NCBI GenBank assembly: GCA_937951675.1
Contig: CALFBI010000006.1
Coordinates: forward strand, 1-64,000
DNA length: 64,000 nucleotides
Direction: 5' to 3'
Source: an uncultured Verrucomicrobiales bacterium
GTDB lineage: Bacteria; Verrucomicrobiota; Verrucomicrobiia; Verrucomicrobiales; Akkermansiaceae
Within the stretch, counting starts at the first letter, position 1. Each line of letters opens with the position of its first letter. Both the position numbers and the translations under genes were made by a program. The notes beneath the pieces are model-generated. The model searched no databases and had not been told where the DNA came from. It saw only the letters and a program-made list of their open reading frames with translations. Below are positions 4,150 through 34,235 of this stretch, one piece after another.

Positions 4150-7100
4150 ATGAACCCATTCATTGAGACCATCACTTCCCCTAAAGCAGAAGTCAGAAAC
4201 CGCTCTTTTGAGTCTCTGAGCTCAGGGCTTTCTAGTCATAAACTCTTAGCGGGCTGTAGTGACCTCGAACAGTTTCGCCACCAAACGACTAATCTTTACG
4301 AAAAGGTTCGGGCCCTTTTTTTTCTCTCGCAACTTTACAAGCATTCTCTTTGTGAAACGAATGAGATTCCTGAAATAGGCTATTTACCTCCTGCCGCCAT
4401 GAAAGCCCTCCTCGCACGGGAGTTCGAAAATTCGATTCAGTCTTTTCTTCAAGCAGGATCCCAGTCTGGTATGAACCACTCTATTGCGAGTGCATTAGGA
4501 AGTGCTTATCAGCAGCTTGGCTTCCAAACTCTAGCAGACCAAGTGAAGAAAAGTGTGCGATCAATCAGAGGAAATCAATGGATGTTTCGCACCGGGCATG
4601 CTAACGACCACCCTCTTCGGATTGACTCAACCTTACTCAAGAGAGAACAAACTTCTTATCCTGTTTTAAGAGAACAAACTCCGGTCCGAATGGATCTCAC
4701 CCATAGTTGTTGGAGTGATGTTTTCTTTCTCGGCATGGATAACCCCGAGGGAGCCAAAGTCATCAACATCTCAGTAGACCTTGCTGTTCGAGGCCAACAT
4801 GAGACTCCAGAGCCACCGATCTCGGCTTACTTCCGTATTATTGACCGCCCTGTCATTAGATTGGTAAGTATCGACCTTGAAACTCAAGCCGATGTTGCCA
4901 GCCTCGAGGAACTTTTTGATTTTGGCCGCGACTACCTAGGCCTCCTCAAAGCGGCCATTATCGCCTCCGGATTCATCCCCCCAGGAATGGAAGGATCAGG
5001 ACAATCTCTTGAACAAGTATTAGAAACATTAATCGGACCAGGACTTGGCTTCGAGCTCGTCAGCCACGTCAATAATATCCCGAAGGGAAGCCGCCTTGCC
5101 GTGAGCACTAATCTCCTGGCCGCTATGATCGGCGTCTGCATGCGTGCTACGAAGCAAACTCAATCGTTAGAAGGTTCCCTCGTCGAAACTGAACGCCGAC
5201 TCCTTTTAGCTCGCTCTATCCTAGGCGAATGGATTGGCGGATCTGGTGGAGGATGGCAAGATTCAGGTGGGGTCTGGCCTGGCATCAAAACCATTTCTGG
5301 GGTCTGCGCCAAGGAGGGTGACATAGAGCACGGACTTTCACGCGGACGGCTCATGCCTCAACACCACGTTCTTACCGAAGATGAAATCCCGACTCATTCA
5401 CGGAAAGCGCTCGAAGACAGTCTTATCATTGTGCATGGTGGAATGGCGAGCAATGTTGGCCCCGTTCTAGAAATGGTCACTGAGAAATACTTACTTCGCT
5501 GCGAAAAAGAAACAGCTGCTCGAGCTCAATCTCTCGAATACTATGAGCGCATTTTAACAGCGCTTCGAACGGGCAATATGAAAGAGCTAGGTGCCATTAC
5601 GAGCGAAAACTTTGAAGGCCCCATTCAGACTATTATTCCTTGGGCTAGTAATGGCTTCACCGAAACATTAATTCAAAGAGTCAAAGAAAAGTTAGGATCT
5701 CATTATTGGGGGTTTTGGATGCTCGGAGGAATCTCTGGAGGAGGAATGGGGTTCATCGTGGAACCGACGCAAAAAAAAGCAGCTCTCAACCAAATTCACG
5801 ACATCATCCTCGCCGTTAAAAAAGAGCTTTCATCCTCTCTCCCTTTTGCGATGGAACCTGTTGTCTACGACTTTGCCATTAACGAAAAAGGCACGCGCGC
5901 TGAGCTCACTTCTGATCATACCATTTGCCCTTCATACTACCTATTTAGACTCCCCTCTTTACTCAAAAAAAATCATCAAGACTTATCTCCCTGCGAACGC
6001 TCCGAAATTCAAAAAATCGCGGAGGCTTGCCAACATGATCAAGACTACCAAAAAGTCAGCTCACAACTCATCGAGCGCCTTTTACCTTCTTCTCAAAACC
6101 AAAAGTCTGATGACCAAACCCACCTTACGCAGCTTCTGCAAGCAAATGGTTTCGATCCTTCCGAACATGAAAGAACACGGCAAGATTTACAATCGGGTAA
6201 AATAGGACTCTCTCAAAATAGGTTAGCTGCCAATACCCTTATTGAAGATGTTCTTGCTCAAGATTTACTACACGAAGCGGCTTGGAAGCAACAAAATGAA
6301 GCCTCTGAAACCTCACACCTAGGGGCGAAGGCAATTCAGGAAGGACAAGTGGCCGTTCTTACGCTCGCGGCGGGCGCAGGAAGCCGGTGGACAGACGGGG
6401 CTGGGATCGTCAAAGGAATCCATCCTTTTTGTAAATTCGACGGGAAACACCGCTCTTTTCTTGAGGTGCATCTCGCCAAAGACCAAAAAACCAATACTTC
6501 TTACCAAGGGGCACTCCCTCACATCTTTACCACAAGCTACCTCACCCACGAAGCGATCTCCGAACAACTCCTTAAGAATAAAAACTACGGATACAGCGGA
6601 AACATCTACCTCTCCAAGGGGCAATCCATCGGCCTCCGCATGATACCAACCGAGCGAGACCTTCGCTTTGCCTGGGAACAAAGCGCCCAGCAACAACTTG
6701 ATGGGCAAGAGCAAAAAATGCTCAAGAGTGTCAGAGAAGCCCTGATTCGCTGGTCCAAACAATCTGGAGAAGGATCTGACTATACCGCTAATCTCCCCGA
6801 GCAATGCATCCATCCCACTGGGCACTGGTATGAGTTCCCTAACCTCTTGCTCAATGGGACTCTTTCCCAGCTTTTAGAGGATCATTCTCATGTTGAGTAT
6901 TTGATGATGCACAATATCGATACACTCGGAGCAACAGTAGACCCTCATCTCCTTGGTTACTTCATCAAGAAACAAAAAACCCTCATGTATGAGGTCATCG
7001 CCCGCCAACTTGATGACCGTGGGGGCGGCCTTGCGAGAGTCAACGGGAAAGCTCAACTCGTTGAAGGAATGGCTCTCCCCCGTGAAGAAGACGAGCTCAA

Positions 7101-28844: not shown

Positions 28845-29243
28845 TTACCAAACGAGGGCAAGAACTTCGCCTCCTAGGCTTTGTTTCTTAGCTGATGCTC
28901 CCGACATCAACCCTTTTGAGGTCGATACAATCGAGATGCCTAAACCATTCAAGACACGTGGAATTTCTCCCACACCGGCATAGTGACGACGTCCAGGTTT
29001 TGAGACGCGCTTTACGTCTGTCAAAACTGGAGTGCTATCAACAAATTTAGTTTTCACTTCGATTACTTGGTGACCCCCTTCAGGTTTCACTTCGTAGTTC
29101 AAAATATATCCTTCTTCTTTAAGGATTCGAGCAATCTCACCTTTTGCTTTAGAGAATGGCGCAGAAAAACTATCGTTTCCGGCACGTGATGCATTCTTAA
29201 AACGGGTAAGAAAGTCTGAAATAGGGTCGCTTACAACAGCCAT
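28845..29243 (-). CDS. rpsH: 30S ribosomal protein S8
   Basis: 132 residues, the central-domain 16S rRNA-binding protein that in E. coli also represses the spc operon. DPISDFLTRFKNASRAG, ARILKEEGYI and the C-terminal GISIVSTSKGLMSGASAKKQSLGGEVLALVW are canonical. Only 38 bases separate it from rplE, so rpsN (S14), normally between them, is missing here. Confidence 0.96.
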   Translation of the reverse strand: MAVVSDPISDFLTRFKNASRAGNDSFSAPFSKAKGEIARILKEEGYILNYEVKPEGGHQVIEVKTKFVDSTPVLTDVKRVSKPGRRHYAGVGEIPRVLNGLGISIVSTSKGLMSGASAKKQSLGGEVLALVW

Positions 29244-29281
29244 GGTATCAATATTCTAAGTTATCGTTTAGGGTTTTCCAA

Positions 29282-29863
29282 TTAAGCTGCTGCTTCAGCG
29301 GAGTCATCATTTGATTTCTGCTCACGGAATGGCATGCCAAGCTGAGAGAGAAGAGAATGAGCTTCTTGGTTTGATGACGCAGAAGTTACGAAAATAAGGT
29401 CGAAACCGATTTGACGTTTAATTTTATCAAGTTCGATTTCAGGAAAAATAGCTTGGTCAGCAAAACCGACAGCGTAGTTGCCTTGCCCATCATAACTTTT
29501 CGGAGAGATTCCACGAAAATCGCGAATGTTGGGAGCCGTCACGTTAATAAAACGATCAAGAAATTCCCACATCTGATTGCCACGAAGAGTAACACGTGCT
29601 CCAACAGCTTCGCCTTCACGAACCTTGAAGTTAGCGACACTCTTACGAGCGAAAGAAACACTTGGCTTTTGGCCTGTGATGCGGGTGATTTCCTCTACTG
29701 CGTCTTCGACAGCAGCTTTCCGGTCGTTAATGTAACGACCGACATGGGTGGTCACAACGATCTTCTCTAAACGAGGGACCTGATGTGGGTTCGAATAACT
29801 GTGCTTCTCTTTGAGAGCCGGCACAATCTTATCTTTATATACAGTTTTTAATGTTGGTATCAT
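29282..29863 (-). CDS. rplE: 50S ribosomal protein L5
   Basis: 193 residues, 5S rRNA-binding protein of the central protuberance. VPRLEKIVVTTHVG, ITGQKPSVSFARKSVANFKVREGEAVGARVTLRG, RDFRGISPKSYDGQGNYAVGFADQAIFPEI and FDLIFVTSA follow in canonical order. A short acidic tail (EQKSNDDSAEAAA) extends the usual C-terminus of about 180 residues. It is preceded by an unusually long 111-base gap after rplX. Confidence 0.96.
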   Translation of the reverse strand: MIPTLKTVYKDKIVPALKEKHSYSNPHQVPRLEKIVVTTHVGRYINDRKAAVEDAVEEITRITGQKPSVSFARKSVANFKVREGEAVGARVTLRGNQMWEFLDRFINVTAPNIRDFRGISPKSYDGQGNYAVGFADQAIFPEIELDKIKRQIGFDLIFVTSASSNQEAHSLLSQLGMPFREQKSNDDSAEAAA

Positions 29864-31629: not shown

Positions 31630-32475
31630 TTATTTGCCTGGCGTTCCTGCTTGAGGAGCGACGGCAGCTGGTTTTTCTGCTGGCTTAGCAGATTGCGGAG
31701 TTGCAGCACCTGGGCCACCTGGGCGACCACCTGGACCTCCCGAACGGCCACCTGGACCTCCCGGACGACCTCCGCCACCACCTCTACGATCATTGCCGCC
31801 TTTTCTTCTTGGGCGACGATCATTTTGAGGGCGAGGAGATAAATCCGCATCGTCTTTCTTATTGATCCAGCATTTTACTCCGATGATTCCGTAAACGGTC
31901 GCAGCTTCAGCAAATCCATAATCAATTGGGACACGAAGAGTTTGTAGAGGGACTTTCCCCTTACGATACCACTCTGCACGAGCAATGTCAGAACCACCAA
32001 GGCGGCCTGCGCATCGAACTCGAATTCCTTCCGCTCCGAAATCCATAGCGGTCTGGAGAGCTCTTTTCATTGCACGACGGAAGCTGATTCGACGCTCAAG
32101 CTGAACACAGATGTTTTCTGCGATAAGTTGGGCATCAATTTCAGGCTTACGAATCTCAACGATGTCGATTTTAACAGGAGCTCCTTTGCAAATTTTGCTA
32201 AGTTCCTTTGTCAATCGTTCAATTTCAGATCCTTTACGCCCGATGATTAATCCCGGACGTGAGGTATGAAGAGTGATACGAACGCTATTCCAAGCACGCT
32301 CGATAGTGACTCGAGAAAGAGCTGAAAAGTGAAGACGTTTCTTGATATATTTGCGAACCGCAAGGTCTTGATGAAGCTTTGTAGTATAGTCTTCACCTTT
32401 TTTCGCATACCATTTAGAGCGCCAATCTTTATTGACAGCGAGGCGGAAGCCGATCGGGTTAACTTTTTGTCCCAT
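31630..32475 (-). CDS. rpsC: 30S ribosomal protein S3 with Gly/Pro-rich tail
   Basis: 281 residues instead of the usual 210-235. MGQKVNPIGFRLAVNKDWRSKWYA starts the protein, the KH domain shows RPGLIIGRKGSEIERLTKEL, and GAEGIRVRCAGRLGGSDIARAEWYRKGKVPLQTLR is the C-terminal core. From about residue 210 a tail follows: basic (RRPRRKGGNDRRGGGG), then repeats of GGRPGGPGGRSGGPG, then Ala/Pro-rich. The tail would protrude from the mRNA entry side and could bind RNA, which is inference from its RGG-like composition. The tail codons are in frame with no sign of frameshift. Confidence 0.95.
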   Translation of the reverse strand: MGQKVNPIGFRLAVNKDWRSKWYAKKGEDYTTKLHQDLAVRKYIKKRLHFSALSRVTIERAWNSVRITLHTSRPGLIIGRKGSEIERLTKELSKICKGAPVKIDIVEIRKPEIDAQLIAENICVQLERRISFRRAMKRALQTAMDFGAEGIRVRCAGRLGGSDIARAEWYRKGKVPLQTLRVPIDYGFAEAATVYGIIGVKCWINKKDDADLSPRPQNDRRPRRKGGNDRRGGGGGRPGGPGGRSGGPGGRPGGPGAATPQSAKPAEKPAAVAPQAGTPGK

Positions 32476-32500: not shown

Positions 32501-33199
32501 TTAAGCGTTTCCGTATTTTTCTTCGAACAAAGCTGTTGCTTGTTCGAGCCAATTATCACGCTCGATACGTCCTTTGAATGCGAGGCGTTCATCGAATGCC
32601 ACAATGTTCTCAGGCGTCCATTTCGTGATTTGTTCATACTTGTAAATTCCTTGCTCGTTTAGCTTTGTTTCGAGAACAGGGCCTACGCCACTAATTTTCT
32701 TAAGGTCGTCGACCTCAGCAGGAGCTTCTTTATAAACTTGTCCAAGTGCTGCTTCATCTCCCGCTGGAGCGGCATCAGCCTTTGGGGCTTTTGCTTCCGC
32801 TTTAGGAGCTGCTTTTTTTGGAGCGGCAGTTTCTTTTTTAGATTTTGACCTAGGCTCTTCAAGAGACACTTCATCTGTCAACACGATGTTGATATGACTT
32901 GTGCGCTTTTTAATCGCTGAGGCAGATCCTCTAGCACGAGGCTTAAAGCGCTTGAAGGAAGGACCCTCGGTGACAGTTGCGATCTTAACAACTAGCGTGT
33001 CAGGGACAAGGTCATGGTTATTCTCGGCATTGGCAATGGCACTCTTCAATGTTTTACCAATGAGAAAGGCCGCCTTGCGAGGAGTGTAGGTCAAGGCATC
33101 AAGGGCGTCTGATACAGGGAGACCTTGGATTTCACGTGCAACGTCACGAGCTTTCTTCGGTGAGATGCGTGCTGATTTTGTTATTGATTTAACTTCCAT
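32501..33199 (-). CDS. rplV: 50S ribosomal protein L22 fused to a helix-hairpin-helix domain
   Basis: 232 residues, about twice the usual 110. Residues 1-112 are L22: SARISPKKARDVAREIQGLPVSDALDAL, AAFLIGKTLKSAIANAENN and the tunnel-hairpin block PRARGSASAIKKRTSHINIVL. Residues about 113-158 are an Ala/Lys-rich linker. Residues about 160-232 form a domain starting DDLKKISGVGPVLETKLNEQGI and continuing with FDERLAFKGRIERDNWLEQA, a helix-hairpin-helix module also seen at the ends of some L21 and NuoE proteins. The module often binds nucleic acid or protein; here it would sit on the outside of the large subunit. Preceded by the inserted coiled-coil gene. Confidence 0.92.
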   Translation of the reverse strand: MEVKSITKSARISPKKARDVAREIQGLPVSDALDALTYTPRKAAFLIGKTLKSAIANAENNHDLVPDTLVVKIATVTEGPSFKRFKPRARGSASAIKKRTSHINIVLTDEVSLEEPRSKSKKETAAPKKAAPKAEAKAPKADAAPAGDEAALGQVYKEAPAEVDDLKKISGVGPVLETKLNEQGIYKYEQITKWTPENIVAFDERLAFKGRIERDNWLEQATALFEEKYGNA

Positions 33200-33226
33200 C
33201 GTTCTAGCGGAGGCAAAGGTTATCGG

Positions 33227-33934
33227 TTAATGAAATGTTTTAATTGAGGCGAGATCACCTAGTTTTGCGGATTGGTCATTTTGTGCGAGGCTCTCAATGA
33301 GAACTCCGCAGACATCTTTTCGTGTTTCGGCGATCACCGCCTCCCCAATCGAATGGCCACCACGCTTCAACGTCATGATCATCCCGATTCGGGCGCCCAT
33401 TTTTTCACCGACGTTGAGAACGAGAAGTCCACTCTCACTGTCAATGCTGACGACACGAGCATGTTGCAATGTGCCGTAATCAACTTTGGGGCGCGGTTTG
33501 TGCCTCAGTCCAAGGGCAACGTCAAGCTCTCTCAGCTTAATTTCTACCTCCTTACGGATATCAGGGTCAGAAACCACTGCCGATTTGAGGTAATGTTGGA
33601 CTGTAGAAGAAAGCTGCATCGCTGCAGTTTCAATAGTATCAAGCTGGCGAGTCAGTAATTCGAGATCTGAAACAGCCTCCACTAATCGATCTTCTCCACT
33701 CCCGAGCAAATGAGTGCCGAGAGCTTCGAGACGAGTGCGAATTTTCGAAAGTGCAGCAGCACTTTCTTGTTCTCTCATATTTGCGCTCACAAGACTTTCT
33801 TTGAAAACCTTGTTTTGACGCTTCAATTTGGAAACCTGCGCTTCCAAAGACTCTCTGCTCACATCAGCCATTGCAGTGTGCCACATAAGAGTAGCACCTG
33901 CGAACACCGGTGTAAGTTGAGAGAGACGAATCAT
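33227..33934 (-). CDS. exported coiled-coil protein inserted in the S10 operon
   Basis: About 235 residues, unrecognised by family name. The ATG at 33934 gives a signal-like N-terminus (MIRLSQLTPVFAGATLMWHTAMA). Residues about 24-75 form a coiled coil (ESLEAQVSKLKRQNKVFKE), and helical sequence continues to about 150. The C-terminal 85 residues look like a small beta domain: ARVVSIDSESGLLVLNVGEKMGARIGM, then TLKRGGHSIGEAVIAE and LGDLASIKTF, a pattern seen in several verrucomicrobial and planctomycete envelope proteins. It lies on the ribosomal strand between rpsS (31 bases before) and rplV (27 bases after), so it must be co-transcribed. It has no counterpart in the standard S10 operon. Its function is unknown. 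Confidence 0.75.
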   Translation of the reverse strand: MIRLSQLTPVFAGATLMWHTAMADVSRESLEAQVSKLKRQNKVFKESLVSANMREQESAAALSKIRTRLEALGTHLLGSGEDRLVEAVSDLELLTRQLDTIETAAMQLSSTVQHYLKSAVVSDPDIRKEVEIKLRELDVALGLRHKPRPKVDYGTLQHARVVSIDSESGLLVLNVGEKMGARIGMIMTLKRGGHSIGEAVIAETRKDVCGVLIESLAQNDQSAKLGDLASIKTFH

Positions 33935-33965
33935 AAGAGTGGTGTGCTGTATCTGAAAAAACGGA

Positions 33966-34235
33966 TTACTTCTTCCCGACGCTTCCGTGGGATTTGAAAA
34001 TTCGGGTTGGAGCAAATTCCCCAAGCTTATGTCCTACCATGTTTTCGGTGACGTAGACTTGGATAAATGCTTTTCCTGCATGAACGTTGAAGTTGTGTCC
34101 AACGAATTCAGGAGTAATCATGGAGCGACGGCTCCATGTTTTGATAGGTTTTTTGTCGTTTCCTGCAACTGCTTTATCAATTTTGAGAAGCAATTTTTGG
34201 TCAACAAACGGTCCTTTTTTGAGTGATCTAGGCAT
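33966..34235 (-). CDS. rpsS: 30S ribosomal protein S19
   Basis: 89 residues of the small-subunit head. [65 protein letters not shown] and FKSHG are canonical. No Shine-Dalgarno sequence precedes the ATG. Normally followed directly by rplV; here the coiled-coil gene lies between. Confidence 0.96.

Follow-up and report, generated by a model that had tools for sequence, protein, structure and literature searches.

Almost all genes of the S10 operon, which ranks with the best-conserved gene clusters of bacteria, belong to the ribosome. The cluster is conserved in most bacteria (PMC2837039), and one recurrent route by which it decays in Gammaproteobacteria and Bacilli, described in the portion of PMC8046335 cited here, consists of small insertions followed by full disconnection. 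In the current study, the stretch of DNA analysed (the window, 64,000 nt from an uncultured member of the Akkermansiaceae) carries a single-strand series of genes in the order rpsL, rpsG, fusA, rpsJ, rplC, rplD, rplW, rplB, rpsS, INS, rplV, rpsC, rplP, rpmC and onward, where INS denotes the gene inserted at the rpsS-rplV junction. Apart from rpsS, rplV and rpsC, these genes were named by eye from their translations. The initial annotation had placed INS between rpsS and rplV, and the Pfam matches of both flanking genes agree with this (Table 1); in the reading frame as read from the window it starts with ATG at nt 33934. A published description of INS was not found in open-access papers. The one signature protein described as common to the PVC phyla, CT421.2, is a different protein (PMC3444138).

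Table 1. Features of the rpsS-rplV junction in the window (nt positions; residues are those of the INS protein).
Feature	Position (nt)	Strand	Basis
INS (inserted gene), exported helical/coiled-coil and beta-domain protein, 235 aa	33227–33934	-	ORF, orthologues, dN/dS
Predicted signal peptide, residues 1–23, putative cleavage between AMA and D	33866–33934	-	Hydrophobic core and AxA; heuristic, not SignalP
Two long helices, residues 27–71 and 80–118, coiled-coil-like	33581–33856	-	AlphaFold2, 30-sequence alignment
Conserved motif, about residues 119–149, consensus AVAADPDARxxVExxLRELDxxLGLRQKPRP, predicted helix 124–141	33488–33580	-	Family alignment A1, model
C-terminal beta domain (predicted), residues 153–235, FlgT_C/MreC-like	33230–33478	-	AlphaFold2, Foldseek, Pfam FlgT_C
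rpsS (S19), upstream neighbour	33966–34235	-	Pfam PF00203, E 7e-37
rplV (L22) with C-terminal HHH-like extension, downstream neighbour	32501–33199	-	PF00237, E 8e-35; HHH_5, E 1.8e-5
rpsS-INS gap, 31 nt, without terminator-like site	33935–33965	-	Gap sequence scan
INS-rplV gap, 27 nt, without terminator-like site	33200–33226	-	Gap sequence scan

Comparison with the S10 operons of relatives, which had been proposed at annotation, confirmed that INS is a real gene. Far from being absent among close relatives, an orthologue is encoded in 57 of the 58 genomes sampled (the window's own included) and in all 50 of those of good quality, and the order L2-S19-INS-L22-S3 is found on one strand in 30/30 of the family loci fetched. 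When a named genome collection was scanned with a 7-member family alignment, 78 loci were recovered, labelled Akkermansiaceae, Verrucomicrobiaceae, Luteolibacter, Haloferula, Akkermansia and others, and S19 and L22 flank INS in every one. None of the 108 complete S10 loci checked in the family departs from the arrangement rpsS-INS-rplV; the median gaps are 26 nt (rpsS-INS) and 28.5 nt (INS-rplV), and the INS protein has 231–250 aa. All sampled genomes of one genus, probably Akkermansia, carry the gene. With its shared strand, fixed position and short gaps across the lineage, INS has the layout of a member of the S10 operon. Its median dN/dS, calculated within one genus, is 0.13 relative to 0.02–0.05 for S19, L22 and S3, so that INS is under purifying selection yet evolves faster than its neighbours.

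The shared strand and short gaps recorded by the initial annotation were borne out (Table 1), and they suggest that INS is co-transcribed with rpsS and rplV. Neither gap flanking INS has a terminator-like site on the transcribed strand. A promoter belonging to INS itself was also considered and rejected, as promoter-like matches in the gap occur only at chance level. Several other features of this part of the window deserve mention. The L22 protein is extended at its C-terminus by about 120 aa, which comprise a linker rich in Ala, Lys and Pro and then a helix-hairpin-helix-like domain, the HHH_5 match of which lies just below the cut-off; since rpsC sits much closer to rplV in other loci of the family, this extension seems to be variable. 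The last 65 or so residues of S3 (nt 31630–32475) form a long tail of low complexity that is rich in Gly, Pro and Arg, and rpsN was not seen in its usual place between rplE and rpsH (nt 28845–29863).

The signal-like N-terminus reported earlier was recovered as a hydrophobic core and an AxA site (MIRLSQLTPVFAGATLMWHTAMA, followed by D), of which the window copy is a weak example. A simple test of hydrophobicity plus AxA was passed by 21 of 30 family members, the four ribosomal proteins examined in the same way were all without a hydrophobic core, and an exported-type N-terminus is present in nearly all forms of INS. The annotation had also described a coiled coil and a C-terminal beta domain. 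The AlphaFold model, in which the three helices of Table 1 precede a beta domain at residues 159–231, supports the latter and predicts two long, coiled-coil-like helices that may form the former. When the beta domain was modelled alone from 75 sequences, the mean pLDDT was 95.7. The best Foldseek match was to FlgT, both for the whole model (E 7e-5) and for the domain alone (E ~2e-3, TMq 0.70–0.71), which is consistent with a fold of the FlgT_C type; next came MreC, matched by the whole model, and rotary ATPases, matched in their N-terminal barrels. At the sequence level, Pfam FlgT_C gave a weak match (E ≤ 1) in 22 of 75 domain members, the best at 1.7e-6, with none for the window copy, and it did not exceed the Pfam cut-off in any of 20 genomes, while the domain profile matched TsaP in the PDB (E 8.7e-5). 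A viral structure library returned only FlgT_C-like and chance matches. There is no curated family for the whole INS protein in Pfam or NCBIfam, and no ribosomal family is among the Pfam and NCBIfam matches listed for it.

Residues 153–235 would form a small beta-barrel similar to the C-terminal domain of FlgT (PF16538; PDB 3w1e, 8z5n), and both proteins are periplasmic, INS by prediction. Unlike FlgT, however, INS lacks the N and middle domains, scores below the Pfam threshold, has an additional helical region at its N-terminal side, and sits in the S10 operon without flagellar context. The resemblance to MreC and TsaP is more distant. The beta domain of TsaP (PDB 3jc8) is similar by sequence profile, but INS has no LysM domain and is not near type IV pilus genes. 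Proteins of related architecture are also found in the same genome, where two tandem paralogues lie on the same contig (C6, ~208.9–210.0 kb). They share with INS the beta domain, a hydrophobic N-terminus and a helical region of some length, but their N-terminus is anchor-like, they are outside the ribosomal operon, and they are distant in sequence. At locus L296 (nt 5416–7062) there is a tandem pair of paralogues in which this beta domain is combined with long helices and an N-terminus resembling an anchor; locus L297 has a pair of the same kind close to a dnaX-like gene.

Beyond the family, a profile search of the class (class, order and genus names of the relatives are inferred) gave matches in 172 of 236 genomes, the weakest of which are paralogues and not the S10 gene. 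Among 40 class loci fetched, 34 have the order S19-INS-L22, 3 are truncated at a contig end but consistent with it, and 3 are paralogues elsewhere in the genome. In most orders of the class, and in part of a second group of class rank, homologues are found at the rpsS-rplV junction. One group of families (f13, f17, f39, f44, f47 and f50) has a short form of about 110–130 aa, consisting of a signal peptide and the beta domain without the helical region, which shows that the beta domain is what all forms retain. Outside the class, 9 sampled genomes carry a version of 129–321 aa at the same junction. Locus L091 has at this junction an INS-type ORF of 558 aa, double the usual length.

In 14 further genomes the sequence after rpsS is unrelated and the operon is broken at that point. 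A break directly after rpsS was seen in many genomes outside the class (loci L130, L133, L136, L141, L147, L154, L162, L163 and others). In the families with a split operon, which are Lentisphaeria-like, a homologous ORF is found directly upstream of rplV in 14 of the 16 genomes searched for L22. Profile-profile comparison confirms that the beta domain is common to all groups (probabilities 97–100%); for the group with the split operon, the alignment with the family INS covers most of its length. Since the homologue is kept 5' of rplV after the operon has split, the association of INS is with rplV and not with rpsS, and this association spans most of the phylum Verrucomicrobiota. The split fits the decay route described in the cited portion of PMC8046335, where small insertions likewise precede disconnection of the cluster, except that here the inserted gene remains with the downstream half. 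The cases given there also differ in being between operons or within rpoBC, whereas the present one concerns a single gene inside S10, found phylum-wide and tied to rplV.

In a tree built from S19, L22, L2 and S3, the genomes without INS fall mostly in a few clades. One such clade includes many families (f11, f16, f20, f22, f24, f27, f28, f30, f32 and f56). The gene is also missing from f12, from one genus of f31, from the two reduced, 0.9-Mb genomes of f19, from parts of the lineage with the short form and from several groups that lie outside the class. Losses are few and clade-wise, but recurrent in the family with the short form. In several clades the loss has left rpsS directly adjoining rplV, the gap often being only 1–15 nt, and since several clades live without the gene, the need for it is not universal. 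In the two 0.9-Mb genomes (loci L115 and L117), which are probably symbionts, rpsS and rplV are separated by 148 and 313 nt; no recognisable remnant of INS was found in these two gaps, and it is likely that the gene was lost there by decay. Distances between INS proteins follow those between ribosomal proteins (Mantel r 0.83, 58 taxa, 0/999 permutations), with only a moderate value within the family (r 0.47). A recent insertion or horizontal transfer was rejected because of the position kept phylum-wide and this agreement with ribosomal distances. Within the class the full form is found most widely and makes the simplest ancestral state, and INS was likely present in the ancestor of the whole phylum, which depends on the rooting and on losses outside the class.

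The explanation we lean towards, as being on balance probable, is that INS is an ancient, vertically inherited member of the S10 operon that encodes a Sec-exported periplasmic scaffold or adaptor, made together with the translation machinery. The protein would be exported by Sec and its signal peptide cleaved, the two long helices would probably oligomerise, and the FlgT_C/MreC-like beta-barrel domain would probably bind a partner in the envelope. Translation would take place from a shared polycistronic message, just before L22, and because the message is shared we propose that INS synthesis follows ribosome synthesis and may thereby be coupled to growth rate; an output proportional to ribosomes would be fitting for a scaffold or adaptor that the growing envelope needs in stoichiometric amounts. 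The branch with the helix-less short form counts against part of this proposal, in that oligomerisation through the coil cannot be essential to the role of INS there. The clades without INS, the weak signal peptide of the window copy and the moderate correlation within the family also count against it. It is possible, if rather unlikely, that the link to the ribosome is meaningless, and that INS is an envelope protein whose gene was inserted at the junction ancestrally and has stayed only because rearrangement of S10 is harmful. The losses that restored a direct rpsS-rplV junction in several clades, often with the very short gap noted above, are in keeping with such inertia, as is the resemblance of the split to the operon decay recorded in Gammaproteobacteria and Bacilli (PMC8046335). 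On the other hand, inertia does not readily account for the retention of INS phylum-wide with similarly short gaps, or for its having stayed with rplV, rather than being scattered, once the operon had broken.

An improbable reading is that the cell-elongation machinery has in INS a second factor of the MreC type, moved into the S10 operon. MreC (PF04085) has the same order of parts, i.e. a hydrophobic N-terminus, a coil and a beta domain, and besides the Foldseek match there is a remote profile similarity, hhalign giving a probability of 93% between the class-wide INS alignment and the MreC proteins of these genomes; with family alignment A1 alone, however, the value is only 30%. INS also differs in having a single beta domain and, in place of a membrane anchor, a signal predicted to be cleavable, and its gene is in the S10 operon and not with mreB/mreD. 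The INS protein of the window has no match to PF04085, the PF04085 match of this genome being another gene (C12:35516–35962); the true mreC is separate, and INS occurs without a detectable mreC in two genomes of genus g3. By analogy with secM upstream of secA, INS could instead be a regulatory cistron whose translation or export controls the translation of rplV, an idea that gains from the exported-type N-terminus of nearly all forms and from the position directly 5' of rplV, even after the split and in the shortest forms. This seems improbable, as what is conserved is a folded domain at the C-terminus, about 80 residues long, and not a short unstructured arrest sequence, the length of the INS-rplV gap varies, and there are clades that do without the gene. 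Location inside a ribosomal operon might suggest a cytoplasmic, ribosome-associated protein whose N-terminus merely resembles a signal peptide, but we regard this as scarcely credible given that a hydrophobic core followed by AxA-type sites is conserved in most members, and that the beta domain is closest to those of the envelope proteins FlgT, MreC and TsaP.

INS thus appears to be a part of the cell envelope that is made together with ribosomes. Whether there is a phylum-wide coupling of envelope and ribosome, either because a scaffold is needed in proportion to growth or because export feeds back on L22 synthesis, is a more speculative matter, and we consider it doubtful. An exported protein that has become fixed in the S10 operon throughout a phylum, and that is kept with rplV after the operon has broken, naturally suggests that growth rate and envelope assembly may be linked. 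Akkermansia can be cultured, and the presence of INS in what is probably this genus would provide a ready test case. In addition, INS is a useful marker of descent for the Verrucomicrobiota.
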